Shown one piece after another: positions 3,829 to 51,765 of a stretch of 64,000 bases of DNA. The stretch is from Methylocella sp. (GTDB lineage: Bacteria > Pseudomonadota > Alphaproteobacteria > Rhizobiales > Beijerinckiaceae), in contig JBBCGG010000001.1 in assembly GCA_037200525.1 (NCBI GenBank), positions 4,704,501 to 4,768,500 of the forward strand, given 5' to 3'. The notes beneath the pieces are model-generated. The model saw only the letters and a list, made by a program, of their open reading frames with translations. It did no database searches and was not told the DNA's origin. Made by a program: the position numbers and the translations under genes. The stretch's first letter is position 1, and each line of letters opens with the position of its first letter.

Positions 3829-4524
3829 TTATTTTCGGGGGAATTTTCCTTTCCACTTATTGTGATCGTTGCGTATTCTGTTTTCGATCGTTTTAGCCGT
3901 GGTTCCAGACAGGTTTTTGTGGCTCGAAGCGAACCAGCTTTGTAAATATTCCGCTTCTTCGACGACCGAGAGGAACGCCTGATTTGCTTCACAGCGGCGA
4001 TCATGTTCCGCAAAAACTAGATGCATTGATGACGGTCGCCCCGGAGCGCCGGTTCCCTTTCTTGGCGACTGAGGATCCAGAAATTCTCGCAAAGAATCTG
4101 GAACAAAAGTTCGCGTGTTCGGGTTCGCGATCAGCCACTCGACTTCTTCGCGCCAAGACTTTTGAGGCTGCGGCGTTAATTCACCAAGAATCGTGCTTTT
4201 GACCCGCGTGAATTGATCCTGGTTCGTCGCGCAATGTGCAGCCATGAGATCTGCGAGCTCTGCTCGCGATTGCGCGCCGAACAGCCACGCATCCCAGTAG
4301 TCTGGTCCGAGAGGATTGCCGTATGCTTTCTCAAATATTTCCGCTTCCGAACACCAAGGAAGAGGCTCGGCGGCGAACGGGTCAGACGGAGCAAACGATT
4401 CCTTTATTAGACCTTTAACGGAGAACCTTTTTCCCGGTTCACCGAACGACCGTGCGGCGCCGGCCCTCCCTAGAATTTTGTCGCGTATGCTGCGGTCGTC
4501 GCGTTCTGTCACACTGCTAGTCAT
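3829..4524 (-). CDS. Hypothetical protein downstream of and overlapping the integrase
   Basis: A 231-residue protein with start ATG at 4524 overlapping the integrase stop as ATGA, so it is co-transcribed with the integrase. The C-terminal part (SGTTAKTIENRIRNDHNKWKG) looks like a helix-turn-helix that could bind DNA; the middle has a basic proline-rich stretch (DPQSPRKGTGAPGRPSS). No enzyme motif is visible. It may be an element regulator or excision factor; this is inferred from position. Confidence 0.55.
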   Translation of the reverse strand: MTSSVTERDDRSIRDKILGRAGAARSFGEPGKRFSVKGLIKESFAPSDPFAAEPLPWCSEAEIFEKAYGNPLGPDYWDAWLFGAQSRAELADLMAAHCATNQDQFTRVKSTILGELTPQPQKSWREEVEWLIANPNTRTFVPDSLREFLDPQSPRKGTGAPGRPSSMHLVFAEHDRRCEANQAFLSVVEEAEYLQSWFASSHKNLSGTTAKTIENRIRNDHNKWKGKFPRK

Positions 4525-5822
4525 GCTTTCCCTCGCGGATTCAGCGTCACAACATTGGTCGCTTCTTTTGGGTCTATGATCGCAGCCAAGCGCTCGCTCC
4601 ACAGCTCCAGGGCGCGGCGTTTCTCATGGTCGTACCGGTGGCGATCATAAACGCCAGTGACGCCACCCTCAGCATGGTTCAAAATCTTCGAAATCACGAT
4701 CCGGTCGGCTCCCAGCTTCGCTAGATATGTAGCGCAGGTCCGCCGCAGATCGTGTAGATGCCACTCGCCGATCACGGGGGCAGCGCCTGGCTCGGCTCCT
4801 GCCGCGACCTTCTCAAGAGCGAGCTGGTCCAGCCTGCTCTTGGATTTGCCCCAACCGCTTATCGGCCCAGCTTTGGTCTTGGTCCCTTTCTGCGGCGCCA
4901 GACGTCGGCCAGTCGAGAAAACGAAGTCCCCAAGTTTGGGGCAACCGTCGATAATCGCCAACGCCAGCTCCGACAACGGCACTTCATGGGCGCGATCGGC
5001 TTTGGTGCGATCTCTCCCCAGAGTCCAAAGCCTTTGTTTGCGATCGATCTCGGTCCAAGTCATCCCGCCGACTTCAGCACGGCGTTGGCCGGTCAAAAGC
5101 ATCAACTTAAATGCGCGCCCAAAAACACTTAGCTCGCCGCACGCCTGCCAAATTGCCCGAATCTCAACCTCTGTTAAAACGCGGTCCCGCTTATTCTCTT
5201 TGGAGGGCTTCTTGATCGCCGCGGCTGGCGACGCTTCAATCAACTCTTCATCGACGGCCCAGCTAAAGAATTTCTTGAGATATGCGAGCACCCGATTGGC
5301 TCCTATAGGAGCATCCTTCCGAAGAGAGCGGATCAGCTCATTCACGTCGGCCCGCTTGATCTCGGAAATCGGGCGCTCCGCCCACAGCGGATAGGCGTGC
5401 TTCCGCACGGCCTTCTTCACAACATCGCCAGTCCTTAGGGTCGACAGGTGGTCTTCGGCAAAAGCGTCGAAGGCAGAAGCAAACGTGTCCGCCCGTCGGC
5501 GTGCCTCTTGGCGCAGACGATCTGCCTCTTTGACCTTGGGATCGATCCCTTGCCGAATGTCCTCGCGCCATTCACGGGCGATCCCTCTGGCTTTGGCAAG
5601 AGACATGGCGGGATAGTCACCGATCCGGCGGGGCGTTGGATTAGGGCTCCCGGGGAAGCGGGTGACGAGGACGAAGGCTCCCCTGCTCTCTTCACTGCTT
5701 CGGTCCGTTACCCGGATGCCGAACCCAGGGATTTGGGCGTCATAGACGATCACGCGCTTGCCCGTTTCGGCTGGCTTGATCGCTCTTAAAAAACGGTCGG
5801 TGAAATCCCGTTTCGCCACCAT
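4521..5822 (-). CDS. Tyrosine integrase, P4/DUF4102 type
   Basis: A 433-residue site-specific recombinase of the P4 class with an N-terminal arm-binding DUF4102-like domain (residues about 5-95), a SAM-like core-binding domain (about 110-205) and a catalytic domain with the full set of residues: Arg247 in TGQRRAEV, His357-x-x-Arg360 in WHLHDLRRT, His383 in LNHAEGG and nucleophile Tyr392 in GVYDRH. ATG at 5822 gives the expected family N-terminus; the frame is open 23 codons further out. It lies 180 bases from a 50-nt tRNA-Phe 3' fragment, so tRNA-Phe is its probable target. It appears intact and active. Confidence 0.93.
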   Translation of the reverse strand: MVAKRDFTDRFLRAIKPAETGKRVIVYDAQIPGFGIRVTDRSSEESRGAFVLVTRFPGSPNPTPRRIGDYPAMSLAKARGIAREWREDIRQGIDPKVKEADRLRQEARRRADTFASAFDAFAEDHLSTLRTGDVVKKAVRKHAYPLWAERPISEIKRADVNELIRSLRKDAPIGANRVLAYLKKFFSWAVDEELIEASPAAAIKKPSKENKRDRVLTEVEIRAIWQACGELSVFGRAFKLMLLTGQRRAEVGGMTWTEIDRKQRLWTLGRDRTKADRAHEVPLSELALAIIDGCPKLGDFVFSTGRRLAPQKGTKTKAGPISGWGKSKSRLDQLALEKVAAGAEPGAAPVIGEWHLHDLRRTCATYLAKLGADRIVISKILNHAEGGVTGVYDRHRYDHEKRRALELWSERLAAIIDPKEATNVVTLNPRGKA

Positions 5823-6004
5823 CGCAGAACCTCTGATTGTTTGTCTCGTGATCCTAGCGGACAACAACGGGACAACATAAATCGTTGGCAATCACTGATA
5901 TTGCCTGAGATCACATGATAGTGTGTTTTTCAAAAACTGCAATGAATCCGGTGGCTTATAAACAGCTAACGAAATCTGCCGATACCGCGTGAGACAACAT
6001 GATT

Positions 6005-37052: not shown

Positions 37053-38222
37053 CTATTCCTGTCGCAATATCTTCCCGAGCTGTTGTGCGGCTTCAAACGA
37101 AGTAGCGCGTATGTAGGCCGCCTCGGTCATCCGGCGATCCCGGTGTTGAAGCAGTGCGGGCGCGAGATGCGGCATGTTTCCCGCCTTCCACGCAGCGGTC
37201 GTGGCGGCGGCGTATCGAAATCCATGCGGCGAGATGGCGACGCCGATCGCCGCCTCTGTTGTCGACGTCAGAGCATGATGAATGCTAGAATAGGACATTG
37301 GGTCGCCGTATCGTGAAATCCAAAGCGGGCCGGAGAGGTTGACGAGTTTCAAACCGTCGTCATGAGCCGGCCCGCCATTCCTATCAGACGAGGCGGTCGT
37401 TTTATTCTGAGGCGCGGCCTCCGGGGCTGAGTTGGCGGCAAGGTTGCTGTCCCGCATCGAAACCGGGGGGTGGCGCTCTTGCACATTGCGGCAGGCGAGG
37501 AGAAAAGGCCTTGCCTCCAGCAGATATCGCTCGAGAGCCGCGGTGAAAAACCCCGGCAGCATGCGCATATCGGGCCGACCGCTCTTGGTTTCACTGCCTG
37601 GTAGGTCGATCCACCAGCAGGAATCAGAAAAATGAAATGATCGGCCGAGCGTCAGTCCGCCGAGATTCTTGACCCGAATCGGACAGGACGCCAGCAGAGC
37701 TATCATTAGGCCATTGCGAATATTGCGCGCCGTCGCCAAATCCATCGGCTGGTCGCATGGGCTATATTCCTCAACAAGCGTCAGCCCGGCGGTCAAGAGT
37801 TCTGAAGCGTCAACGACAGGGGGTCGCTTGACGGGGCCATCTTCGGCTTTGAGATCATCGGCGACGTTGGACAGCCATTTGAAGTTAGACGACGGCGCCA
37901 AATGACCCGCGATCTGTTTGAGTTTGTGGATCGTCATAAACAGCGTCGTCGCTGACCATTCGTCGCGCATGCGATCAACAAACGGGCCGATGTGCTCCGG
38001 CGTTATGAGAGATGCGCAAGACGCCGCGGCGTCGAACCGATGGATTTCCTTGAGGAATGTCAGAAAATATCCATAGCGCCGCTGGATATCGTCACGCGTG
38101 ATGGGAGCCAGGCGCGATGCAGATCCGCCTCGCCGTAACCTGACCGCGGGGTGGCAGGCTGTGTCCCACGCCTCTTGGTCGGATTTCGGCCATTCGCCGA
38201 TTGGAAGAGATTTCAGCATCAC
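37053..38222 (-). CDS. Tyrosine recombinase, second of a tandem pair
   Basis: A 389-residue recombinase with Arg183 in CPIRVKNL, His333-x-x-Arg336 in SPHGFRYAAATTAA, His360 in LLQHRD and Tyr370 in TEAAYIRA. The active-site set is complete though the sequence is far from phage integrases. Its start overlaps the stop of the 562-residue recombinase upstream, so both are translated together. An insertion of about 45 residues (after ACRNVQERH) is low in complexity. The pair recalls TnpA/TnpB of Tn554-like transposons, but order and sizes differ. Confidence 0.82.
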   Translation of the reverse strand: MMLKSLPIGEWPKSDQEAWDTACHPAVRLRRGGSASRLAPITRDDIQRRYGYFLTFLKEIHRFDAAASCASLITPEHIGPFVDRMRDEWSATTLFMTIHKLKQIAGHLAPSSNFKWLSNVADDLKAEDGPVKRPPVVDASELLTAGLTLVEEYSPCDQPMDLATARNIRNGLMIALLASCPIRVKNLGGLTLGRSFHFSDSCWWIDLPGSETKSGRPDMRMLPGFFTAALERYLLEARPFLLACRNVQERHPPVSMRDSNLAANSAPEAAPQNKTTASSDRNGGPAHDDGLKLVNLSGPLWISRYGDPMSYSSIHHALTSTTEAAIGVAISPHGFRYAAATTAAWKAGNMPHLAPALLQHRDRRMTEAAYIRATSFEAAQQLGKILRQE

Positions 38223-39907
38223 TGATGCATCGCAGCGCGAGACTGGCGCTCAATGTCGGCGCGGAGGATCTCGCCATAGTGACGATTGGCCGCCAGCGTT
38301 TCCAGGCCGATGTAAAATTCTTGCGTCGTCTTGATGTTTTTGTGCCCGAGCACGCGGCGCACAAATTCGTAGTTGCCGGGGTCATTGCGCAAGATGGTGG
38401 CCGCCGTCGCGTGCCTGAATTGGTGGCAGGTGATGCGAATGCCGATGTTTTCCTCCACCGTCCGGGCGATGCGGACGCCAAAGCTGTTGACGGCGCGCAT
38501 GGTGTCGCGGACGCCCGGAAACAGCTGATCGTTGTCTGTTGCATCGACGAGGTGCGGTCGAAACTCATGAATGTAGACGTCGATCAGTTTCGTCACCACG
38601 GCGTCAAACGGAAACTCCAAAGCGACCTTGTTTTTGACTTCGTCCGAGGGGATCGACAGCAGGTAGTTCCCGTGCGGTCCGTCGGGCTTGGTCAAATGGC
38701 CGCCGATGCGGATGCCGACGAGATTGCTGATGCGGACCGGCGCAAAGGTCAAGATCGCGATGCCGATCGCGACCTGAGCCGAAAGAGAGGCCCGATGCGG
38801 CGCATGAGCGAGCGTCGTCTTCGCCTCGCTCAACAGGCGCTCCGGCAAGCCGACCACCTCGCGCCAGACAGTCCCGCTTTGAATGGCGTGAACGACGCGC
38901 TTATTTTTTTGCGTCAGGCCAACCTGGCGGTGTTCCTCCAGCGCCGCCCGAAGATCGTCCAACCGGGCGAGATCGGCCTCGTTCAACGCGCCGGAATCGC
39001 GCGCGATGGAGAGCAAGCGCCAACCAAGATCGATGACGTAGGTCTTTGGATGTTCGCCGACCCAATAGTTGTCGATGACCTTTTCGACGAGGTCTGGATC
39101 GAGCAGAGCTCGGAGCGTCGTCAACGACTCGATCGGTATTCCTAATGATATGGCTCGGCGCGCAAATGCCTGGATTTCCGCAAGGCGGGTGTCAACCGTC
39201 GAGGTTTTGGACAGCCTGCGACGTGATCCGTCCGGCTTGCGGCGGATCGTTTGAAGAGAATGCAGGTATTGGTCGATCTCAGCGCGCAGCGACTCCGGAA
39301 AGGCGCTCCAGGATAGCAGCGGTTCGCCTGCAAGCGGCGCCGAAGTCAGTTTGTGCCTTGGCCATGTCGGATGATCGTCGACGCAGGCGTTCCAGGCGCG
39401 AACAACGCTTCGCTGGATCCGAGGCGAACCATCCTGCGCCAGAACCTCGGATCTGTAGCGCGTGTATCTTTCGACAAAGGGATCGTCGACGCCGAACGGC
39501 GAGACGCCGCTCCCTGAAGCAAAACGCATGAGTCCGGTCAGATAATAGCGATCCATCTCGTGTCCGACGAGCTGCCGCAGGCCGGCCCATTCCGGCGCGA
39601 GCGGCGTTCCCCTTGCGGGAATGGTTTTGTCCCCGGACAGATAGCGCAAGGCGGCCTTCAGATTTGAGACGTGGTTTTTCAGGGTCTTTTCGGACATGCC
39701 GACGCGGGCGTGATGCAGCTGCTTGATACGGTGCGCCAGCGCCTGCCAGCGGGCGGGCAGACTTTCGGGCGGCAAGCCGAGCGCCGCCGCGACCGCCCGC
39801 ATCGAGCAGGACCAGTGACTGATTTTCGATTTCTCGAGATCCGACGCCTGGATCAGGCGGATCGCATCGGCGAGATTAGGCTCGGCGAGGGATGATTGGG
39901 CGGACAT
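38219..39907 (-). CDS. Large tyrosine recombinase, first of a tandem pair
   Basis: From the ATG at 39907, 562 residues: a long N-terminal half with SAM-like DNA-binding regions (MSEKTLKNHVSNLKAALRYL at about 71-90) and a C-terminal catalytic domain with Arg392 in APVRISNL, His495-x-x-Arg498 in CHQFRHATAATIL, His522 in LGHKNIKTT and Tyr532 in QEFYIG. An in-frame ATG lies five codons upstream. An HTH gene precedes it by 200 bases in the same direction. The size and pairing fit transposon-type recombinases working as a team rather than a simple phage integrase. Confidence 0.85.
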   Translation of the reverse strand: MSAQSSLAEPNLADAIRLIQASDLEKSKISHWSCSMRAVAAALGLPPESLPARWQALAHRIKQLHHARVGMSEKTLKNHVSNLKAALRYLSGDKTIPARGTPLAPEWAGLRQLVGHEMDRYYLTGLMRFASGSGVSPFGVDDPFVERYTRYRSEVLAQDGSPRIQRSVVRAWNACVDDHPTWPRHKLTSAPLAGEPLLSWSAFPESLRAEIDQYLHSLQTIRRKPDGSRRRLSKTSTVDTRLAEIQAFARRAISLGIPIESLTTLRALLDPDLVEKVIDNYWVGEHPKTYVIDLGWRLLSIARDSGALNEADLARLDDLRAALEEHRQVGLTQKNKRVVHAIQSGTVWREVVGLPERLLSEAKTTLAHAPHRASLSAQVAIGIAILTFAPVRISNLVGIRIGGHLTKPDGPHGNYLLSIPSDEVKNKVALEFPFDAVVTKLIDVYIHEFRPHLVDATDNDQLFPGVRDTMRAVNSFGVRIARTVEENIGIRITCHQFRHATAATILRNDPGNYEFVRRVLGHKNIKTTQEFYIGLETLAANRHYGEILRADIERQSRAAMHQ

Positions 39908-40107
39908 AAGTCGCGGCCTCATTGGTTTGAAGTTGATTGAGGTGGATGGGGATATATCTGCATGAATATTAGGACAACGTCAATGTATTATCATCGCTTG
40001 ATACTGTGTGTAAGCATCCTAATGAAGTAATACCGAGGAATATATTGATGGATTTACGTTGATTTAGATGGATGTTTATTTTGATCAGAAAGCCAGAGAA
40101 AGTAGCA

Positions 40108-41147: not shown

Positions 41148-41341
41148 GCGCACAGGTCTCCTAGATTCGTGGAACGGATCTACGGAGGCTTTCGAAACAA
41201 GAAAACAGCGCCTGTGGCGCCGCGCGCCGGTCGTCCTGGAGTGGAGCGGCCGATAGACAACGTTATGTGCGTATAGTGTAAGATCACACCATCACAAAGA
41301 TTATCGGGAGTTAGCTTTCGCCATCATCGCTGGAGGTAACC

Positions 41342-42013
41342 ATGGCGGAAATTAATTGTGACCACAGAGGAGCATTTGACGCGGCGCTATATTTTGCCAG
41401 AGGGTCGATAACAGTGGTGGCGAGCTGCGCGCTGCTCGTTCTCTTCATCATGGATTTCAACGCAATCTCCGATGCGTCGCAGCAGCTTCTTCGGCGCGCA
41501 GGATCAGTGACGACGTTGAAGGTCTTCGGCGTGGAACTAACCCTCGACGAGCAGGCCGTATCGGTGGCTTTGTCTGAATATGCCGACCGGCCGCATCGCC
41601 TGTCTGCCGAGGTTGCGAACGTCGTCTCGAAGCTCAGACCCAGTGAATTTGTGCGGCTGATGGAGGTTGGCCAAATGAGCGGCCTCTGCGAATTCGAAAG
41701 GCCGTCGGCCAAGATGCGCGCCGATGTCGCGCTGGATTATGGATTACAGGAAAAAGGCCTAACTAAAGTCGCCGACAGCCTGACGACGTTGGCGGATGTC
41801 GTAGCCTATCTCGAGCACAGCGCATCCGAAGGATTAGAAACTCCCAACGGGCGTCCTCTGTCCTGTTATGATTTGACGTTGACCGACCTTGGCCGCGACG
41901 TGAAAACAGCTCTGGTGCAGTCTTTTAAGAGCACCTTCGATCCAATGCATGGGCGCGGCGAGCCGCCTACAGGAAGTCACCCTTTGGAAGGCGATAAAGC
42001 GGCCGCGCTCTGA
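41342..42013 (+). CDS. Membrane-anchored hypothetical protein
   Basis: A 223-residue protein with one strong hydrophobic helix (residues about 22-42, ITVVASCALLVLFIMDF) after a short N-terminus and a soluble rest. The soluble part has an all-helical look with ending CYDLTLTDLGRDVKTALVQSF, which resembles a winged-helix third helix. TGGAGGTAACC precedes the ATG. No family recognised; it is preserved between element fragments and the haem-protein operon and reads in the same direction. Confidence 0.6.
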   Translation: MAEINCDHRGAFDAALYFARGSITVVASCALLVLFIMDFNAISDASQQLLRRAGSVTTLKVFGVELTLDEQAVSVALSEYADRPHRLSAEVANVVSKLRPSEFVRLMEVGQMSGLCEFERPSAKMRADVALDYGLQEKGLTKVADSLTTLADVVAYLEHSASEGLETPNGRPLSCYDLTLTDLGRDVKTALVQSFKSTFDPMHGRGEPPTGSHPLEGDKAAAL

Positions 42014-42155
42014 ATCCCTGAACGGCGTGCACCGTGCTGCCGCGCGCGCCGAATAATGTGCGAGTGTTTCTCCCGTAACGCAAACCGCTGATTTCGAAAC
42101 CACGCCGTAGCTCATGTAGAATAGCTTGCTGCTTTGTCGGGATGAAGAGCGGAAC

Positions 42156-42326
42156 ATGGACACAGCTGCGGCCTTGATTGGATGGGCAGTCATCACATAT
42201 TCGGCGCTTTGGGTTGTTGCGAGAATCGCGCGCCATTTTACCGCCGAGTGGAGCCGTCGGCGCGGAGGGTCATCCCACCTAAAGCGCGGGCAGGACAGTT
42301 CGCTCTGGGCTCCGCTAGATTGGTAA
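42156..42326 (+). CDS. Possible small membrane protein
   Basis: From ATG at 42156, 56 residues with one helix (AALIGWAVITYSALWVVARIA) and a basic tail. The ribosome site is weak (GAAGAGCGGAAC) and the C-terminal part may be random, so this gene is doubtful. The following 350 bases up to 42683 carry no gene and should hold the promoter of the next operon. Confidence 0.3.
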   Translation: MDTAAALIGWAVITYSALWVVARIARHFTAEWSRRRGGSSHLKRGQDSSLWAPLDW

Positions 42327-42682
42327 ATCCGAAATCTTGCCGCATGAATTCTCGATCAGCGATGGGACTGTCATCTGATGATCTGGTCAGGAGGTCTCCT
42401 TGCCGCGCGGATCAAATGCATAGAGCGTTTGGAGGCCGGCCGCCGCCTTTAACGTCCTGCAAGAACGCGCAAACTACTTCGCTCCGGGACATCTTTGACT
42501 CGAACCACATTCCGGGCGTCATTTTGGATCTCGCATTGATACGCCGACCCGATCATCTTCGAAGCGCCATTACGGCTGTAGCGTAAAGTGCTTTGCGGTG
42601 AAACCAGAAGGTAGCAAAACCTACTCATGCTCTCTCCGTTATCGACGCTGATTTTTATGTCACGGATTAATCTGGGCCTTGC

Positions 42683-43360
42683 ATGTCAAATATTGCCGGT
42701 AAAGCATATGCGATGAACGTCGTCACGCCCATGAAGAGGTGGGGGGCTTTTATTCAGCGCTTGATCTTCATGCTTGCGCGCGCCCTACCGAGCAGGCTCA
42801 ATGGATTGATGGGACTGCATCTCATCCACTTTGCCCGCTGGGTCCTCATTCGGCGCGACCAATGGCCGGATCTCGGCCAGGGCAAACAAACTCTCAAGTA
42901 CGACTACATGCTGTTCTGCAGCAATTTCAACGGCACTTGGGATCAATATATCGACGCATTTTCTGACGCTATCCCAAGCGGCCTCGATCTCTTTTGGTAT
43001 GCCAGCATCAAATATCCGCATTCGGTTCCGATCACGGCGTTCAAGAATTACATCACTCACAACCAGATCGATACGGACTATTACTATAATGCGACGCCTG
43101 GCGCGGCTCAGCGAGACATCAAGGCGGCATTGAGTGTTTTCGCCGCTATTCGCGAACTGGCGGCTCTTCATCCGGGCAGCAATGCAGAAGCCTTTGCGTC
43201 GGCCTATCGCGCATCGCTTCTGAAAGTTCAAAACTGCTTAGGCTCGCAAGGCATCGCGCCGGTCGCAAGCTTGGATGCGGAAAACGCAGAGCGTAATCGG
43301 GCCGAATTTTTGATGTCTCGAAAGAACTCTTCATCGAGGTCGCCATATGCCGAATTATGA
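42683..43360 (+). CDS. HFAR-motif protein, first gene of the haem-protein operon
   Basis: A 225-residue protein. Sequence blocks are LHLIHFARWVLIRRDQ, YDYMLFCSNFNGTWDQYIDAF, then KYPHSVPITAFKNYI and DTDYYYNATPGAAQRDIKAAL. I recall similar proteins beside DyP-type peroxidases in actinobacteria and other bacteria, but no function. The alternation of strands with HFAR and SNFNG suggests a ferredoxin-like alpha/beta fold. The last 14 bases overlap the start of the next gene, so it is the first cistron of a compact operon. Confidence 0.65.
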   Translation: MSNIAGKAYAMNVVTPMKRWGAFIQRLIFMLARALPSRLNGLMGLHLIHFARWVLIRRDQWPDLGQGKQTLKYDYMLFCSNFNGTWDQYIDAFSDAIPSGLDLFWYASIKYPHSVPITAFKNYITHNQIDTDYYYNATPGAAQRDIKAALSVFAAIRELAALHPGSNAEAFASAYRASLLKVQNCLGSQGIAPVASLDAENAERNRAEFLMSRKNSSSRSPYAEL

Positions 43361-44285
43361 TGCGGGCCACTATTTCCTGACGGCGCTAGCTCCGATCCGC
43401 ATCGGCTCGATGATGGTCGACGGTCAAAGTCACTCGCACCACCAGCTGGTCAGGCGAGCGCTGGCGTTCATGCCCACTGGCGAGCGCACGATCGCATCTG
43501 CTGGAAAAGGAACCGACAATCCATTCGCAAGAAACTCGCGAACGCATTTCGCGCGCTTCGCAGTGCTCGACGACGTCATCTTCAACGGCCGCGTTTCCGG
43601 CGATTCGCTGCTGGATCTTGCGACGAATCCCCTCAAACCCCAGCGCGTCGACCATTTATCGACTCCTTTTTTAATCTTCACGGCAGACTTCGACGCCAAC
43701 GGCTGCGGGGACGACGAATTGAAGACCTATTTGACCGAGCTCTGGGCCACGATGTCCGAAGAGCTGAATGACATCTTCCGGCATTGTGTGGGATTCGGCG
43801 AGATTGCAGCGGCGGACGGGTTTTTCGATTACATCAAGAAATGCCAAATCGAGACGACGATGCCATTCAACGACTACTGGTCCGTCCAATTGAATTTGCC
43901 TGATCTCAATCTGATTCCGTACGTGACTGCGGCCCTCGGTCTGTTCGCGCTTTCCATCGCCGCCGCGTTGGTAACGAATATGCCGCAGCTCTGGATTGGC
44001 GCCCTTTTAGGGCCTGTTCTGGTCATGGTCCTGCTATATTGGAAAATCGCGCGAACCGCCCGGAGTCCGTTCCCGAAATCCCCTGCGTCCGCGCCTGCAT
44101 CAAATCTGCCAACTATCCTGAAAGCGCTCTATCTGCAGCGAGGGTTCACCGAATTTGCGATCCGCGCCCAGGGCATGAGTGACCAAAGTCTGCGCGACGA
44201 GTTCGGCAATTTCATAGCAAGCCACAAACCCAACGAATTGGCCGCGCCGACGCAGAAACCCGGCGTGATCGGCGTAAAATCATGA
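43347..44285 (+). CDS. HFAR-motif protein with two membrane helices
   Basis: A 312-residue protein. The N-terminal 190 residues repeat the pattern of the first gene: RTHFARFAVLDDVIF, then STPFLIFTADFDANG. Two hydrophobic helices follow at about 190-210 and 214-231 (TAALGLFALSIAAALV, LWIGALLGPVLVMVLLYW), then a soluble tail of 80 residues. It may anchor the operon products to the inner membrane. Its stop overlaps the start of the peroxidase-like gene as ATGA. Family unnamed. Confidence 0.65.
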   Translation: MPNYDAGHYFLTALAPIRIGSMMVDGQSHSHHQLVRRALAFMPTGERTIASAGKGTDNPFARNSRTHFARFAVLDDVIFNGRVSGDSLLDLATNPLKPQRVDHLSTPFLIFTADFDANGCGDDELKTYLTELWATMSEELNDIFRHCVGFGEIAAADGFFDYIKKCQIETTMPFNDYWSVQLNLPDLNLIPYVTAALGLFALSIAAALVTNMPQLWIGALLGPVLVMVLLYWKIARTARSPFPKSPASAPASNLPTILKALYLQRGFTEFAIRAQGMSDQSLRDEFGNFIASHKPNELAAPTQKPGVIGVKS

Positions 44286-45940
44286 GGGGCTTGGCTGTGA
44301 AGCGGGAACTCGACCTTGCCGACATTCAGGGCAATATTATCCGCCCTTACGGTCGCATTGGTTTCCCTGTGGCGAGGCACCTCTTCTTCAATATCGGCGA
44401 CGCGGCCGCCGGGCGGCGATTCATCGAACGCATAAGGCGTGCGGTCACCACAGCGGAACGTTGGGCCGCGGCCGATGCTGAAAATCCCAGCGCGCCGGTG
44501 CGTCCGCTGGTGGCCGTAAACATTGGCATCTCGTTCCTGGGCCTTCTTGCTTTGGAGCTTCCCACCCGCACTCTTAGCCAATTGCCGCCCGAATTCATCG
44601 ACGGCATGGCCAAGCGAAGCAGCATTCTGGGCGATGTTGAAGAGAATTCTCCGGCGAAATGGGATCCGATCTGGGTGGCCGCGCGCGAAGCTCGAAGCTG
44701 TGAGGTGCATGTCTGCGTCTCGCTTAGCTCTCAGGTCGCGCCGGATGGCGCGCCAGTTGACGCGCTGAATGAGCGGACGGAGTGGCTGCGAACGGCCGCG
44801 GTGGAATCCGGGGGCGTCACGCTTTTAAAAGGGCATCGGGGAACCGAAGCCGCTTACCAGGACTCCGCCGCCTTGACGCAGGAACTAGCGCCCGGCCGGA
44901 TGGCGCCGACCGCGAAGGAGCATTTCGGCTTCGTCAATGGCATCGGCGATCCGGTCTTTGTCGGGCAATACAAGACTGGCGTCGAAGCAGCGGAAGTCAC
45001 GGGCAACGGTAAGCTTTTGCCTGACAACAAGGGCTGGGCTCCACTGGCCCCCGGCGAATTTATCCTTGGATATCCGAATGAGGCGCAGGAATTGCCGCCA
45101 ACGGCGATGCCGATGGAGTTTATGCGGAACGGCACATTCATGGTCTACCGCAAACTGCACCAGAACATAGCTAGCTTCGGAGGTTACGTGAGGCAGCAGG
45201 CCGCTGTGTTTGATCAGCGAGTCGCGACAGCGACGGAATCCGAGGCGGAAGAAACTATCCGCGCCAAAATGATGGGGCGGTGGTCGAATGGCATTCCTCT
45301 CGTGGTTGCTGCCACCTTTCAAGAAAGTCAGAACCTTGAAATGAAATGGGCGGACATCCCTGCGATCCAACTCAAGGGGGCCAATCGCACCGCATCCGAG
45401 ATGGCTCGGCTCGCGGAGTACGAACGCCTTCTCATTGATTTTCGATACAGCGAGGATATCGAGGGCGCCAAATGCCCAGTCTCGGCGCATATACGTCGCT
45501 CCAATCCTCGAGACTCACTCGATCCTCTGCTCGGCTCCTATCCTGCCGGGAAGTCCGCGACTTCCGCTTTAAGCAATCGCCGGCGCATTTTGCGGCGCGG
45601 TCTGCCTTATGGCGCCTCCGGCGTCGCGGATGATGCGAGTGAACACGGCTTCATCTTCATGGCGATCTGCGCGAGTCTCTTCAATCAATTCGAATTCATC
45701 CAGCAGCAATGGATTCAATATGGCGATAGCTTCAACGTCGGCAACGATACCGACCCCATTGTGGGAATGCGCCGTTCGGGCGCAAAGTTCGTGATTCCGT
45801 CAGATCCCGCAGGGACCGTCCCCCCATTCATCTGCGCCAACCTGCCGCAATTTGTTGAGACGCGCGGAGGCGAATATTTCTTCCTTCCCAGTCTGACGGC
45901 ATTGCGCCAGATCGCAATGGGGACCGTCGACCCAACCTAA
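44282..45940 (+). CDS. DyP-type peroxidase-like haem protein with Asp-to-Asn change
   Basis: A 552-residue protein matching large DyP peroxidases: N-terminal DLADIQGNIIRPYGR, HFGFVNGIGDPVF at 214-226, the proximal haem His403 in CPVSAHIRRSNPRD, RRGLPYG at 438-444, GFIFMAICASLFNQFEFIQQQW at 456-477 and GGEYFFLPSLTALRQIA near the end. In active members the distal motif is FGFxDG; here the acid is Asn219. The haem pocket seems kept but peroxide cleavage may be changed. No signal peptide, so cytoplasmic. It is the third cistron, starting at an ATGA overlap and followed by the P450 gene after 64 bases. Confidence 0.8.
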   Translation: MRGLAVKRELDLADIQGNIIRPYGRIGFPVARHLFFNIGDAAAGRRFIERIRRAVTTAERWAAADAENPSAPVRPLVAVNIGISFLGLLALELPTRTLSQLPPEFIDGMAKRSSILGDVEENSPAKWDPIWVAAREARSCEVHVCVSLSSQVAPDGAPVDALNERTEWLRTAAVESGGVTLLKGHRGTEAAYQDSAALTQELAPGRMAPTAKEHFGFVNGIGDPVFVGQYKTGVEAAEVTGNGKLLPDNKGWAPLAPGEFILGYPNEAQELPPTAMPMEFMRNGTFMVYRKLHQNIASFGGYVRQQAAVFDQRVATATESEAEETIRAKMMGRWSNGIPLVVAATFQESQNLEMKWADIPAIQLKGANRTASEMARLAEYERLLIDFRYSEDIEGAKCPVSAHIRRSNPRDSLDPLLGSYPAGKSATSALSNRRRILRRGLPYGASGVADDASEHGFIFMAICASLFNQFEFIQQQWIQYGDSFNVGNDTDPIVGMRRSGAKFVIPSDPAGTVPPFICANLPQFVETRGGEYFFLPSLTALRQIAMGTVDPT

Positions 45941-46004
45941 TTGAAGCGCCCCGATCGCCCCTCGATCTTGTTGAGCGCCGAATCGCGGCCAAGAGGAATC
46001 ATAC

Positions 46005-47372
46005 ATGTCGCTGGTCAATAGCGCGCTCTCGGCGGTCTCCACGCAGATCTCGATACTTAGCGCCGGCTTTGTTGCGATTATCCGGCTGGCCGCAGCAGCG
46101 ACCGCGAACTTGTTTGGCTCCGCGGGGACCATCCAATCACGCCTGACTACAGCGTTGACCTCAACTGCTGGCCAACGTTTGGTCTTCAGCGTTCTACGCG
46201 CTCTCGCGCCGAATGTTCTAATTCAGCGAAAACTTATAACGGCCTACGACAATTGTGGGACTGCCTTTGTGACGCGGTTCGATGACGTCAAAGAAGTGCT
46301 TGGGCGAGACGAGGATTTCGAAGTCGTTTATGGCCCCCGGATGATGCAAATCACTGGCGGCCAAAACTTCTTCCTGGGCATGAAGAATACGCCCGAATTT
46401 ACTCGCGATATATCGAATATGCGGCTCGCCGTGCGCCGCGATGATATTGTCAGCATTATCGAACCGATCGCGCGTCAGCGCGCGGCGGAACTGGTCGACG
46501 CATCAAAGAACGGCCGCATAGACGTCCCACAAGATCTGACCCTGAGGACTCCGGCGCACTTGTTGAAGGACTATTTTGGTGCGCCCGGACCTTCCGAACG
46601 AGAGATGATCGATTGGACGACTGTAATGTTCTCCTATCTGTTCCTCGATTTGGGCGCCGATGCGGGCCTCGACGCTCGCGCGCTTGACGCCGCCGCGCAA
46701 TGCCGAGCCTATCTGGACGCCGTTATTCAAGAGCGAAAGATGCATCCGACGCGCAGCGACGATGTTGTAAACCGGTGCCTCGCCATGCAAGCGACCGGTC
46801 TTCCCGGGATGGATGATCTTGGCATCAGGAATTACCTCATCGGCTTGATCATCGGCGCTGTTCCGACGACGTCGCAAGCTGCTGTTCAGGCGCTCGATCA
46901 ACTGCTCGACCGTCCGGATGCGCTGGCCGGGGCGCAACAAGCCGCGCGAGTGAATGACGACGCGCTGCTGCGGCGGTATATTTTCGAGGCGCTGCGATTC
47001 AACCCTCCAAGCCCGATAATTTATCGACGAGCCGCGAGAGACACGGAGATCGCTCGCAATACCCTGCGGGCCTTGAAAGTACCAAAGTCGACCATGGTGA
47101 TGGCAATCCCATTTTCCGCGATGTTCGACAGAATAAAGCTCAAAGATCCGGACTGTTTCCGAATTGATCGTCCGTGGAGCGATTACGTTCTCTGGGGCGA
47201 TGGGCTACATACTTGTTTTGGAGCGCACATCAATCCGGTTCTGATTCCGGCGATATTAAAGCCGCTTCTTGCGCGGCAGGGCTTGCGGCGCGCGGCGGGG
47301 TCGGCTGGCCAAATCGACGCCGACGGGACGCGGCTTCCGGTGCATCTGTTTCTTGAGTTCGACGCGGCTTGA
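46005..47372 (+). CDS. Cytochrome P450-like protein
   Basis: A 455-residue protein with the P450 haem loop WGDGLHTCFGAHIN (thiolate Cys404) and K-helix E328-A-L-R331. The I-helix reads IIGAVPTTSQ at 282-290, where most P450s have acid-Thr; Pro287 takes the acid place while Thr288 and Thr289 remain. The first 55 residues are weakly hydrophobic and may touch the membrane. AGAGGA precedes the ATG. No ferredoxin or reductase gene is nearby, so electrons must come from elsewhere, or it may use peroxide. It follows the DyP-like gene in one operon. Confidence 0.8.
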   Translation: MSLVNSALSAVSTQISILSAGFVAIIRLAAAATANLFGSAGTIQSRLTTALTSTAGQRLVFSVLRALAPNVLIQRKLITAYDNCGTAFVTRFDDVKEVLGRDEDFEVVYGPRMMQITGGQNFFLGMKNTPEFTRDISNMRLAVRRDDIVSIIEPIARQRAAELVDASKNGRIDVPQDLTLRTPAHLLKDYFGAPGPSEREMIDWTTVMFSYLFLDLGADAGLDARALDAAAQCRAYLDAVIQERKMHPTRSDDVVNRCLAMQATGLPGMDDLGIRNYLIGLIIGAVPTTSQAAVQALDQLLDRPDALAGAQQAARVNDDALLRRYIFEALRFNPPSPIIYRRAARDTEIARNTLRALKVPKSTMVMAIPFSAMFDRIKLKDPDCFRIDRPWSDYVLWGDGLHTCFGAHINPVLIPAILKPLLARQGLRRAAGSAGQIDADGTRLPVHLFLEFDAA

Positions 47373-47391
47373 ATACGGAGGTCTAGAAGTT

Positions 47392-48186
47392 TTGAAAGAA
47401 ACGAGCGACACGCCGGGATCGTCGACCGCGATGGTTCTCCCGTCCCTTTTAACCTTTCCACCAATGATCGATAGCGAGATGTGTCGCTTCGTCTTGAACC
47501 GCTACGAGATCCCCTATCGGGAGACACCTCATATCTTTGGATGGGCATCTGTCCTCGCTCTGTTTTTAGCCGGAACAGTGCAAATCCCGGTGCTTTCTGG
47601 AGCGAACTATCGTCTGGTGGGACCGCGTCAGATCGTCGACCGCTTCGACAAAGATTGCGAGGCCGCGAGAAGGCTGATTCCCACTGACGCAACTTTGCGC
47701 GCCCAGGTCGAACTGGATTGGAGCGTTTTCAATGACGTTATCGGATTCGCGCCTGCCGTCGTGGCGTATTATCACCTGCTGCCGCACCGCGAGATCATGG
47801 TCGAGCCTTTTACTCGTGGCTTGCCCGCGTGCGAGGCGTCTTTTGTGCGGGCGGCATATCCGTTGGTTGCTGGACTGTTCAAGCTTCTTTTGCAGCTCAA
47901 TAAGACGAACGCACAAAAAGCCCTGGACCAACTCAGAGCAGTGTTTAATGAGACGGACGTGAGGCTGGCGGACGGGCGCAATTTTCTCGTCGGAGAAGCA
48001 TTGACCTTAGCCGACCTGCGGTTAGCGACCGCAGCGGCCCCGCTGGTGCTTCCGGAGGGTTACGGCAGTCCAATGCCGCCATTCGATCAAATGCCTTCGG
48101 AATTTCAGGCGATCATCACAGAAATGCGCCAGCGTCCCACAGCTAGATACGTGGAGCGGATCTACAAGAACTATCGAAACAGCTGA
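47392..48186 (+). CDS. Glutathione S-transferase-like protein, copy 1
   Basis: The start is TTG at 47392, ten bases after GGAGG and just past the P450 stop, giving 264 residues. The thioredoxin-like N-domain has LPSLLTFPPMIDSEMCRFVL, the cis-Pro strand VQIPVL and LVGPRQIVDRF. The helical C-domain includes YYHLLPHREIMVEPFTRG and FLVGEALTLADLRL, the GST N-capping region. The family conjugates glutathione to electrophiles or reduces peroxides, which fits the oxidative neighbours. A close paralogue is at 50971 and a broken one at 54258. Confidence 0.75.
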   Translation: MKETSDTPGSSTAMVLPSLLTFPPMIDSEMCRFVLNRYEIPYRETPHIFGWASVLALFLAGTVQIPVLSGANYRLVGPRQIVDRFDKDCEAARRLIPTDATLRAQVELDWSVFNDVIGFAPAVVAYYHLLPHREIMVEPFTRGLPACEASFVRAAYPLVAGLFKLLLQLNKTNAQKALDQLRAVFNETDVRLADGRNFLVGEALTLADLRLATAAAPLVLPEGYGSPMPPFDQMPSEFQAIITEMRQRPTARYVERIYKNYRNS

Positions 48187-50627: not shown

Positions 50628-50970
50628 CCTAGAGTTCGTCGACAACTCGGTCAATTTGCAACGCGGCGCCGTCTTCGATTGGCAACAAGAAGGGATTAGC
50701 TTTCTCGATGCCAGAATTACCGCGGTAACTGCGCCGTCTCAAAACGACATCGTCGCGTAACGGGAGTGTGTGGATTTGTGCTTGAGTTACGTCGCCGCGT
50801 TGAGCGACGTGATGCGCGGACACCCCTTCGACGCGACCTGCGCTGATCCGATCTTTTTAAGGCGACGGATCGACTCACCGCTGGCAAAAGGGCGTCGTTC
50901 GAAAGTCCACAAGGTGCTTTCGGTACGCTTGGTTAAAGAATACGACTGCCGGAACAGGGAGGCGAGAGGT

Positions 50971-51765
50971 TTGAAAAGAATTAGCGATGCTTCGAGATTG
51001 CGAACTGCAGCGGCTCTCCCGTCTCTCCTAGCGTTCCCAACGATGACTGACACTGACATGTGTCGCTTGATCTTGACCCATTATGAGATTCCTTATCGGG
51101 AGGACCCTCATATCTTTGGATGGGCCTCCGTTCTCGCCCTCTTTTCCGCGGGCTCGGTTCAAATTCCGGTCCTTGTTGGACCCGATTATCGTCTGGTGGG
51201 ACCGCGTCAGATCGCCGGCCGTTTTGATAAAGATTGTCCGGCCGCCGGAAAGCTTGTCCCCGACGACGCAACCTTGCGTGCTGAGTTCGAACTAGATTGG
51301 ACCACGTTCGATGGAGTCCTGGCGCGCACAACTGCAATTTTGGCGTATTATCATCTGCTGCCGCACCGCGAAATCATGATCGAGCCGCTCACGCGCGGCG
51401 TGCCGACGCTTGAAGCGTCGTTCGTGCGGAGCGCCTACCCGTTGTTTTCAGAACAATTCCGACTTCTCTTGCAACTCAACAAAGAAAACGCGCAAAAAGC
51501 ATTGGACCAAACCAGGGCCGTGTTCAACCAAACCGACGCACGGCTGGCGGACGGCCGGCGCTTTCTCGTCGGAGAGTCCTTGACCCTATCCGACCTAAGG
51601 TTTGTAAGCGCCGCCGCGCCCGTGCTTCTTCCGAAGGGTTACAGCTCTCCGATCCCGCCATTTGAGCGGATGCCCTCTGAGTTTCAAGCAATCATCACGG
51701 AAATGCGCCAACATCCTGCCGCTAGATATGTTGAAAGGATCTACGACAGTTACCGAAACAAATAA
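50971..51765 (+). CDS. Glutathione S-transferase-like protein, copy 2
   Basis: Starts with TTG after GAGG, in the same way as copy 1, and gives 264 residues. It keeps every block of copy 1: LPSLLAFPTMTDTDMCRLIL, HIFGWASVLALF, VQIPVLVGPDYRLVGPRQ, YYHLLPHREIMIEPLTRG, FLVGESLTLSDLRF and MPSEFQAIITEMRQ. The gene lies between two IS481 copies, away from the P450 gene. About 340 bases upstream are open in frame but unrecognised and may be remains of another gene. Confidence 0.75.
   Translation: MKRISDASRLRTAAALPSLLAFPTMTDTDMCRLILTHYEIPYREDPHIFGWASVLALFSAGSVQIPVLVGPDYRLVGPRQIAGRFDKDCPAAGKLVPDDATLRAEFELDWTTFDGVLARTTAILAYYHLLPHREIMIEPLTRGVPTLEASFVRSAYPLFSEQFRLLLQLNKENAQKALDQTRAVFNQTDARLADGRRFLVGESLTLSDLRFVSAAAPVLLPKGYSSPIPPFERMPSEFQAIITEMRQHPAARYVERIYDSYRNK

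Follow-up and report, generated by a model that had tools for sequence, protein, structure and literature searches.

A recurrent bacterial haem-enzyme system in which class-V-type DyP peroxidases travel with an uncatalogued domain family and, often, a cytochrome P450

Background

What would bring a DyP-type peroxidase, a cytochrome P450, a GST-fold protein and two proteins of no recognised family together in one tightly packed run of bacterial genes? The question is raised by a five-gene operon of Methylocella sp. (Beijerinckiaceae), which lies in a stretch of 64,000 nucleotides (assembly GCA_037200525.1, contig JBBCGG010000001.1, positions 4,704,501 to 4,768,500), hereafter the window. According to the available text of a 2021 review of the family (PMC8197335), the true physiological roles of DyP-type peroxidases remain unclear. 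Here we show that the operon is one copy of a recurrent bacterial haem-enzyme system, at the centre of which stands a near-constant pairing of a class-V-type DyP with the domain carried by the first two proteins, A and B, and we weigh what such a system might do.

An earlier note, drawn from the letters of this DNA, had described five plus-strand genes that overlap or stand 64 and 19 bases apart, and the list of open reading frames (ORFs) confirms that layout (Table 1). The overlaps and the conserved gene order suggest that the five are read as one transcript. Computational scans of the region gave two candidate promoters, where shuffled sequence gave a mean of 2.7, and 11 candidate terminators, where it gave a mean of 7.4 (standard deviation 3.6).

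Recurrence of the gene set

When B alone was used as a query against the contigs of one genome per species (84,980 species), 50 loci were recovered, and five family profiles were then run on all of their frames. Gene A is present in 48 of these loci, the two misses (L019 and L063) beginning at a contig end, and DyP in 47, the contigs of the other three (L029, L050 and L060) ending inside B or fewer than 260 bases away. A P450 was found in 31, on the same strand in 30 and on the opposite strand in L031, and a GST in nine, one of them (L017) a fragment. The complete five-gene order occurs eight times (L021, L026, L033, L045, L046, L052, L057 and L061), gene A of L061 holding a stop. The families grouped in the earlier note thus recur together in the same order; as a unit its five-gene set stands for B with A and DyP, which are near-constant beside it, but not for the GST, which is optional, or the P450, which is not obligatory.

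Hosts of the operon include Alpha-, Beta- and Gammaproteobacteria and Verrucomicrobia, and the surroundings differ from one to the next: when ORFs of at least 90 residues were clustered across 58 loci (L015-L072), no additional family appeared in more than five, one cluster of 40 ORFs being set aside as all of its members overlap operon genes in other frames. These data bear on the simplest alternative, that unrelated cargo was gathered by chance between insertion sequences. Insertion-sequence (IS)/transposase and integrase genes do lie on both sides of the operon in the window; nevertheless the recurrence of one gene order in many families, and in more phyla than one, together with the single-chain fusions described below, renders this explanation vanishingly improbable, and since gene order is conserved across phyla we reject it.

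The pairing of HFAR with DyP

We call the unit common to A and B the HFAR domain, after the motif picked out in the earlier note. Its association with DyP was assessed in 241 evenly sampled genomes of the host's class, scored with HFAR, DyP and P450 profiles and with the general family Dyp_perox_C; the scoring took only the best candidates of each genome, and some matches may be missed. The HFAR profile matched nine genomes, from nine different families, and the DyP profile built in this analysis matched ten, which include all nine with HFAR, the match in the tenth (G266) being a 37-residue piece. At E <= 1e-40, a threshold of our own choosing, the P450 profile matched six genomes, every one of them an HFAR genome. 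Fisher tests gave 1.5e-15 for HFAR with DyP and 3.3e-10 for HFAR with P450, or 3.7e-14 and 8.8e-9 once the window's own genome was removed. HFAR and DyP adjoin or share one ORF in eight of the nine genomes, and lie on two contigs in the ninth (G134). An extension of the link to all DyPs was rejected: 18 of the 23 genomes (among the 241) that match Dyp_perox_C have no HFAR.

A similar picture emerges from the loci themselves. DyP is present in 92 of the 96 examined, and 91 of those 92 have HFAR on the same strand no more than 3 kb away, a count to be read in the light of the 50 loci that were fetched with B, and hence hold HFAR by construction, and of the plasmid loci, most of which were fetched with an HFAR query. 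The sole exception (L117, in G134) is at a contig end, and the HFAR of that genome (L118) is at another. Queries with DyP alone returned 17 loci (L066-L078 and L097-L100) and HFAR is present in 17 of 17, the HFAR profile having been iterated on L073, L074, L078 and L097-L100 and not on L066-L072 or L075-L077. The pairing of HFAR with class-V-type DyP is therefore near-constant.

Natural fusions

The HFAR query matched 45 plasmid records, of which 16 were opened, along with six from two other searches. In three plasmid loci (L079, L080 and L081) P450, HFAR, hairpin, HFAR and DyP follow one another in one ORF; the hosts are Pararhizobium qamdonense (1,423 residues), Sulfitobacter sp. CB2047 (1,620) and Novosphingobium aromaticivorans (1,443), and all three share with B a hydrophobic hairpin, here placed behind the first HFAR domain. 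Other joins involve fewer parts. Skermanella has one protein with two HFAR domains and hydrophobic segments, followed by DyP and P450; DyP and P450 share one ORF in L115 and probably in L117 (weak P450 match, 1e-4); HFAR, HFAR and DyP are joined in L073, L074 and L110; and A and B in L048, L049 and L051. That the same parts are fused in such varied ways is strong evidence that they work together. Two further arrangements were seen: a 1,209-residue ORF in L116 with HFAR, DyP and one more part, and, in Sinorhizobium chiapasense (L087), a second gene of the HFAR type, which lies downstream of DyP and of a NIPSNAP-family gene (Table 1).

The HFAR domain

Profile comparison of A with B (P 3.4e-5, probability 72%) identifies the two as homologues, and both profiles hit the second protein of a plasmid cluster in Granulicella (A 2e-17, B 3e-27). 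Across an alignment of 27 diverse rows one Tyr never varies, and one Pro and the motif's His and Arg almost never do. Both A and B match the profile and carry the conserved H..R, Y and P, which in A are His49, Arg52, Tyr89 and Pro112. The earlier note had seen no known family in either protein, and this was borne out: A has no Pfam match and no significant NCBIfam family, and B has no significant NCBIfam family and, in Pfam, only a holin match below cut-off (E 0.19). Its view that one of the two is membrane anchored likewise agrees with the two transmembrane segments predicted in B (residues 192-210 and 217-235). HFAR is thus an uncatalogued domain family, with no entry in the Pfam and NCBIfam copies searched.

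Structure models reached a mean predicted local distance difference test score (pLDDT) of 62.7 for A and 81.7 for B, and a Foldseek search of the PDB with the model of B gave zero matches at E <= 0.001. From the order of elements (beta, alpha, beta, beta, alpha) one might guess at a ferredoxin-like fold. HFAR and DyP were also compared for sequence homology, and none was found.

A proposed two-haem assembly

How might these parts work together? A reading to which we give even chances is that the operon's products make up a membrane-anchored, two-haem enzyme assembly with shared peroxide or organic-hydroperoxide chemistry. Its two halves differ in standing: the assembly is well supported, whereas the chemistry and the substrate are what we infer. 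A, soluble or peripheral, and B, anchored by its hairpin, would bring the class-V-type DyP and the P450 together, the separate proteins of the operon presumably forming a complex. One haem would then make or spend peroxide and the other rearrange or consume it, acting on a substrate that may be hydrophobic and near the membrane, and the GST, where this optional fifth member is present, could take up reactive products. The earlier note's proposal of peroxide use on a lipid-like or aromatic substrate is likewise conjectural.

Alternatively, HFAR could be a maturation, haem-loading or membrane-targeting factor for class-V-type DyPs, with P450, catalase-like protein (see below) and GST as varying downstream users that share no joint catalytic cycle. 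HFAR accompanies DyP whichever third partner is present, P450, catalase-like or neither, as such a factor should; yet two HFAR domains within a P450-DyP chain would be unusual for a chaperone, and the near invariance of the motif His and Arg also counts against this role, which we regard as rather unlikely.

Exchange of the third partner

In a sister branch a catalase-like protein stands in the place of the P450. Its gene adjoins HFAR and DyP in 11 loci, mostly on plasmids (L082, L086, L088-L095 and L113; the first ten served to build the profile), one of which (L092) has a P450 as well. A quick tree of 90 DyPs (those of the 92 loci less L065, L084 and L096, plus that of the window; some branches are long) shows both labels to be clustered, with none of 500 shuffles as low for either. 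The P450 label nevertheless needs at least 14 changes on the tree and the catalase label at least five; hence exchanges or losses of the third partner have taken place.

An exchange between P450 and catalase-like proteins, with a GST in nine of the 50 loci and a membrane anchor, would suit a defence unit in which DyP and its partner reduce or isomerise peroxide or lipid hydroperoxides while the GST clears electrophiles. Such a unit sits poorly with flanks in which no other family, stress regulators included, occurs in more than five of the 58 loci, with a window DyP that lacks the distal Asp and with a sporadic distribution (nine of 241 genomes); we think it unlikely.

Beside three catalase clusters (L086, L089 and L093) lie, on the opposite strand, genes for an oleate hydratase and a 3-hydroxyacyl-CoA dehydrogenase, divergent in L089 and L093 and convergent in L086. 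These neighbours would fit a further alternative of low probability, in which DyP and P450 are successive oxidative steps towards a specialised metabolite or signal, whether oxylipin-like, terpenoid or aromatic. The patchy distribution agrees with that view, as do the several NCBIfam P450 models matched by the window protein, the nearest of which belong mostly to natural-product pathways, though every one lies far below its cut-off. Against it, no core biosynthetic family stands beside the operon in more than five of the 58 loci, and the fatty-acid genes were seen beside the catalase branch only.

Residues of the two haem enzymes

Both haem ligands named in the earlier note, His403 of the DyP and Cys404 of the P450, are present and conserved in all aligned relatives. 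For the DyP, Pfam gave DyP_N (2.3e-7) and Dyp_perox_C (8.3e-6), both above cut-off, and NCBIfam a superfamily model at 6.7e-23, yet below that model's cut-off; a profile of 35 relatives matched DyPs best in the PDB (8re3, E 1.2e-93; the ancestral D-type 7anv, E 1.8e-65). All 35 of the DyPs first aligned, out of 61 found, keep His403; in the larger alignment all 90 rows have both His403 and Arg333, which we take to be the distal Arg.

The P450 is matched by Pfam p450 at 1.2e-12. Cys404 and the ExxR motif (E328, R331) occur in 33 of 33 aligned P450s (33 of the 40 found), which match bacterial monooxygenase structures best. The I-helix of a usual P450 monooxygenase carries the Asp or Glu of an acid-alcohol pair; here, in the motif GAVPTT, Pro occupies position 287 in 32 of 33 sequences (L073 has Asp there) and all 33 have V, I or L at 286, so that the acid is absent in either register. 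No redox partner recurs beside the operon in the 58 loci (ORFs of at least 90 residues, plus an Fe-S pattern scan), the remainder of the genomes being unsought. With no such partner recurring there and the acid absent, a peroxide-driven or isomerase chemistry is plausible for the P450.

Glutathione transferases pair a thioredoxin-like N domain with a GST C domain. The GST-fold protein is matched by Pfam in its C domain (GST_C_2, 9.2e-6, above cut-off); a PDB search with it gave no significant match. A PHROGs search returned nothing useful.

Evidence that tells against the proposed assembly

Several observations weigh against a two-haem assembly with shared peroxide chemistry. The P450 is absent from 19 of the 50 loci fetched with B, and the absence is real in 15 of them, because at least 2.5 kb of sequence is kept beyond DyP; in L031 and L112 it is encoded on the opposite strand. 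Attempts to identify the HFAR fold failed, and in the literature found there is no experiment on any member of the system. The lack of an I-helix acid is a weak point, for erythromycin C-12 hydroxylase (2jjn) likewise has none in the alignment. A convincing 2Fe-2S motif was seen near the operon in two of the 58 loci only (pattern scan, judged by eye): in the related gammaproteobacterial loci L021 and L026 a reductase-like ORF lies upstream, and its product might supply those P450s with electrons.

A Thr before the distal His is the hallmark of catalase-related fatty-acid hydroperoxide enzymes. In the catalase-like neighbours the residue before the presumed distal His is Ala in nine of the ten aligned proteins and Val in L095, never Thr. 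They thus lack the hallmark, and a fatty-acid substrate is unsupported by this test.

Finally, where 89 of the 90 rows carry the distal Asp of the GXXDG motif, the window's DyP has Asn at residue 219. The same Asp-to-Asn change in a fungal class V DyP, that of B. adusta, abolished compound I, as stated in the part of the 2021 review that was available (PMC8197335), and for that reason the window DyP may be a poor peroxidase. By sequence the gene is a DyP homologue; that this copy is an active peroxidase is doubtful.

The copy in Methylocella sp.

The genome holds a second, decayed copy (L065), about 98% identical to window positions 41188-46231, in which A and DyP are frameshifted, B is shortened and the P450 is truncated beside insertion-sequence genes. 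It too has Asn219; because both genomic copies share the Asn, the change is probably older than the duplication. The DyP half of the Methylocella sp. operon is probably impaired by this substitution, and the copy may now work mainly through its P450 or be on its way out.

As to origin, the DyP of the window groups with that of L015 (62% identity, support 99), and those of five congeners that also have the operon form a separate group in the tree (support 99); in four of the five, what we take to be a prolyl-tRNA synthetase-like gene lies beside the operon, the contig of the fifth being short. Because the window's DyP groups with a distant relative and not with congeners, and because IS and integrase genes flank the operon, horizontal gain is likely, in keeping with the earlier suggestion of a mobile or recently gained trait.

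Among the neighbours listed in Table 1 are two ORFs upstream of A that occur in both genomic copies, a pair of tyrosine-recombinase genes further upstream, and a second GST-like gene separated from that of the operon by insertion-sequence genes.

Table 1. Coordinates of the operon genes, their neighbours and features of related loci (window positions unless a locus or contig is named)
Feature	Position	Strand	Description
Gene A	42683..43360	+	HFAR protein, 225 aa, 0 predicted transmembrane segments
Gene B	43347..44285	+	HFAR protein, 312 aa, two-helix transmembrane hairpin, homologue of A; overlaps A by 14 bases
DyP gene	44282..45940	+	Class-V-type DyP peroxidase, 552 aa; proximal His403, Arg333, Asn219 (codon 44936-44938); 4-base overlap with B
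P450 gene	46005..47372	+	Cytochrome P450, 455 aa; Cys404, ExxR 328-331, I-helix GAVPTT; 64-base gap after DyP
GST gene	47392..48186	+	GST-fold protein, 264 aa, optional fifth member; TTG start (frame also has an earlier TTG at 47269; 47392 adopted); 19-base gap after P450
Recombinase genes	37053-39922	-	Two neighbouring tyrosine-recombinase (phage integrase family) genes
Upstream ORF	41342-42013	+	In both genomic copies; Pfam match below cut-off (E 0.11)
Upstream ORF	42182-42586	+	In both genomic copies; no Pfam match at E <= 1
Second GST-like gene	50770-51765	+	About 75% DNA identity to the operon GST
Decayed operon copy	G000:C1 ~222500-227500 (L065)		About 98% identical to window 41188-46231
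HFAR-DyP ORF	L116:5905-9531		1,209 residues
Second HFAR-like gene	L087:7186-7710		Sinorhizobium chiapasense
2Fe-2S ORF	L021 ~4345-5706		Reductase-like, upstream of operon
2Fe-2S ORF	L026 ~4751-5827		Reductase-like, upstream of operon

Relation to known systems and outlook

The operon's DyP belongs with the class V (formerly C/D) DyPs in that it matches DyP structures and keeps His403 and Arg333; it differs in travelling with HFAR and often with a P450 and, in the window copy, in having Asn for the distal Asp. In the available text of the 2021 family review neither 'P450' nor 'fused' occurs (0 occurrences each; PMC8197335). The same text describes EfeB and the encapsulin-cargo DyPs, which share with the present system a dedicated partner gene; those DyPs are of other classes and have other partners. 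The earlier note knew of no described system with this set, and none appeared among the titles and abstract openings listed in searches that were confined to CC-licensed PMC text.

The two-haem pairing itself has an analogue, although not a relative in the sense of membership, in the fungal dioxygenase-P450 fusions (linoleate diol, epoxy alcohol and allene oxide synthases), in which, according to the accessible part of one source, a haem peroxidase-type domain is joined to a self-sufficient P450 (PMC13049297). Their partner comes from the peroxidase-cyclooxygenase superfamily, whereas the operon's haem peroxidase is a DyP, and that part of the source mentions no HFAR domain for them. P450s of the CYP74 clan and catalase-related proteins carry out hydroperoxide chemistry without redox partners, as described in an accessible portion of another (PMC10813956), a parallel to the exchange of P450 and catalase-like partners seen here; the operon P450s, however, are nearest to bacterial monooxygenases, and the catalase-like neighbours lack the Thr. 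A bolder form of the proposed assembly, which we advance tentatively and hold to be somewhat improbable, would make HFAR, perhaps a ferredoxin-like domain, an obligate partner for the class-V-type DyPs of bacteria. HFAR and DyP together would be the heart of a modular oxidative machine that accepts either a P450 or a catalase-like haem protein, and the operon and its single-chain forms of 1,423-1,620 residues would be independently evolved prokaryotic counterparts of the fungal two-haem oxylipin synthases.

The system adds to the known families a domain, HFAR, that is absent from the Pfam and NCBIfam copies searched, and its natural DyP-P450 fusions are of possible use as peroxide-driven biocatalysts. 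Above all, a near-constant HFAR partner, a second haem enzyme that keeps recurring and the naturally fused forms make the question of what these DyPs do for their hosts a testable one.

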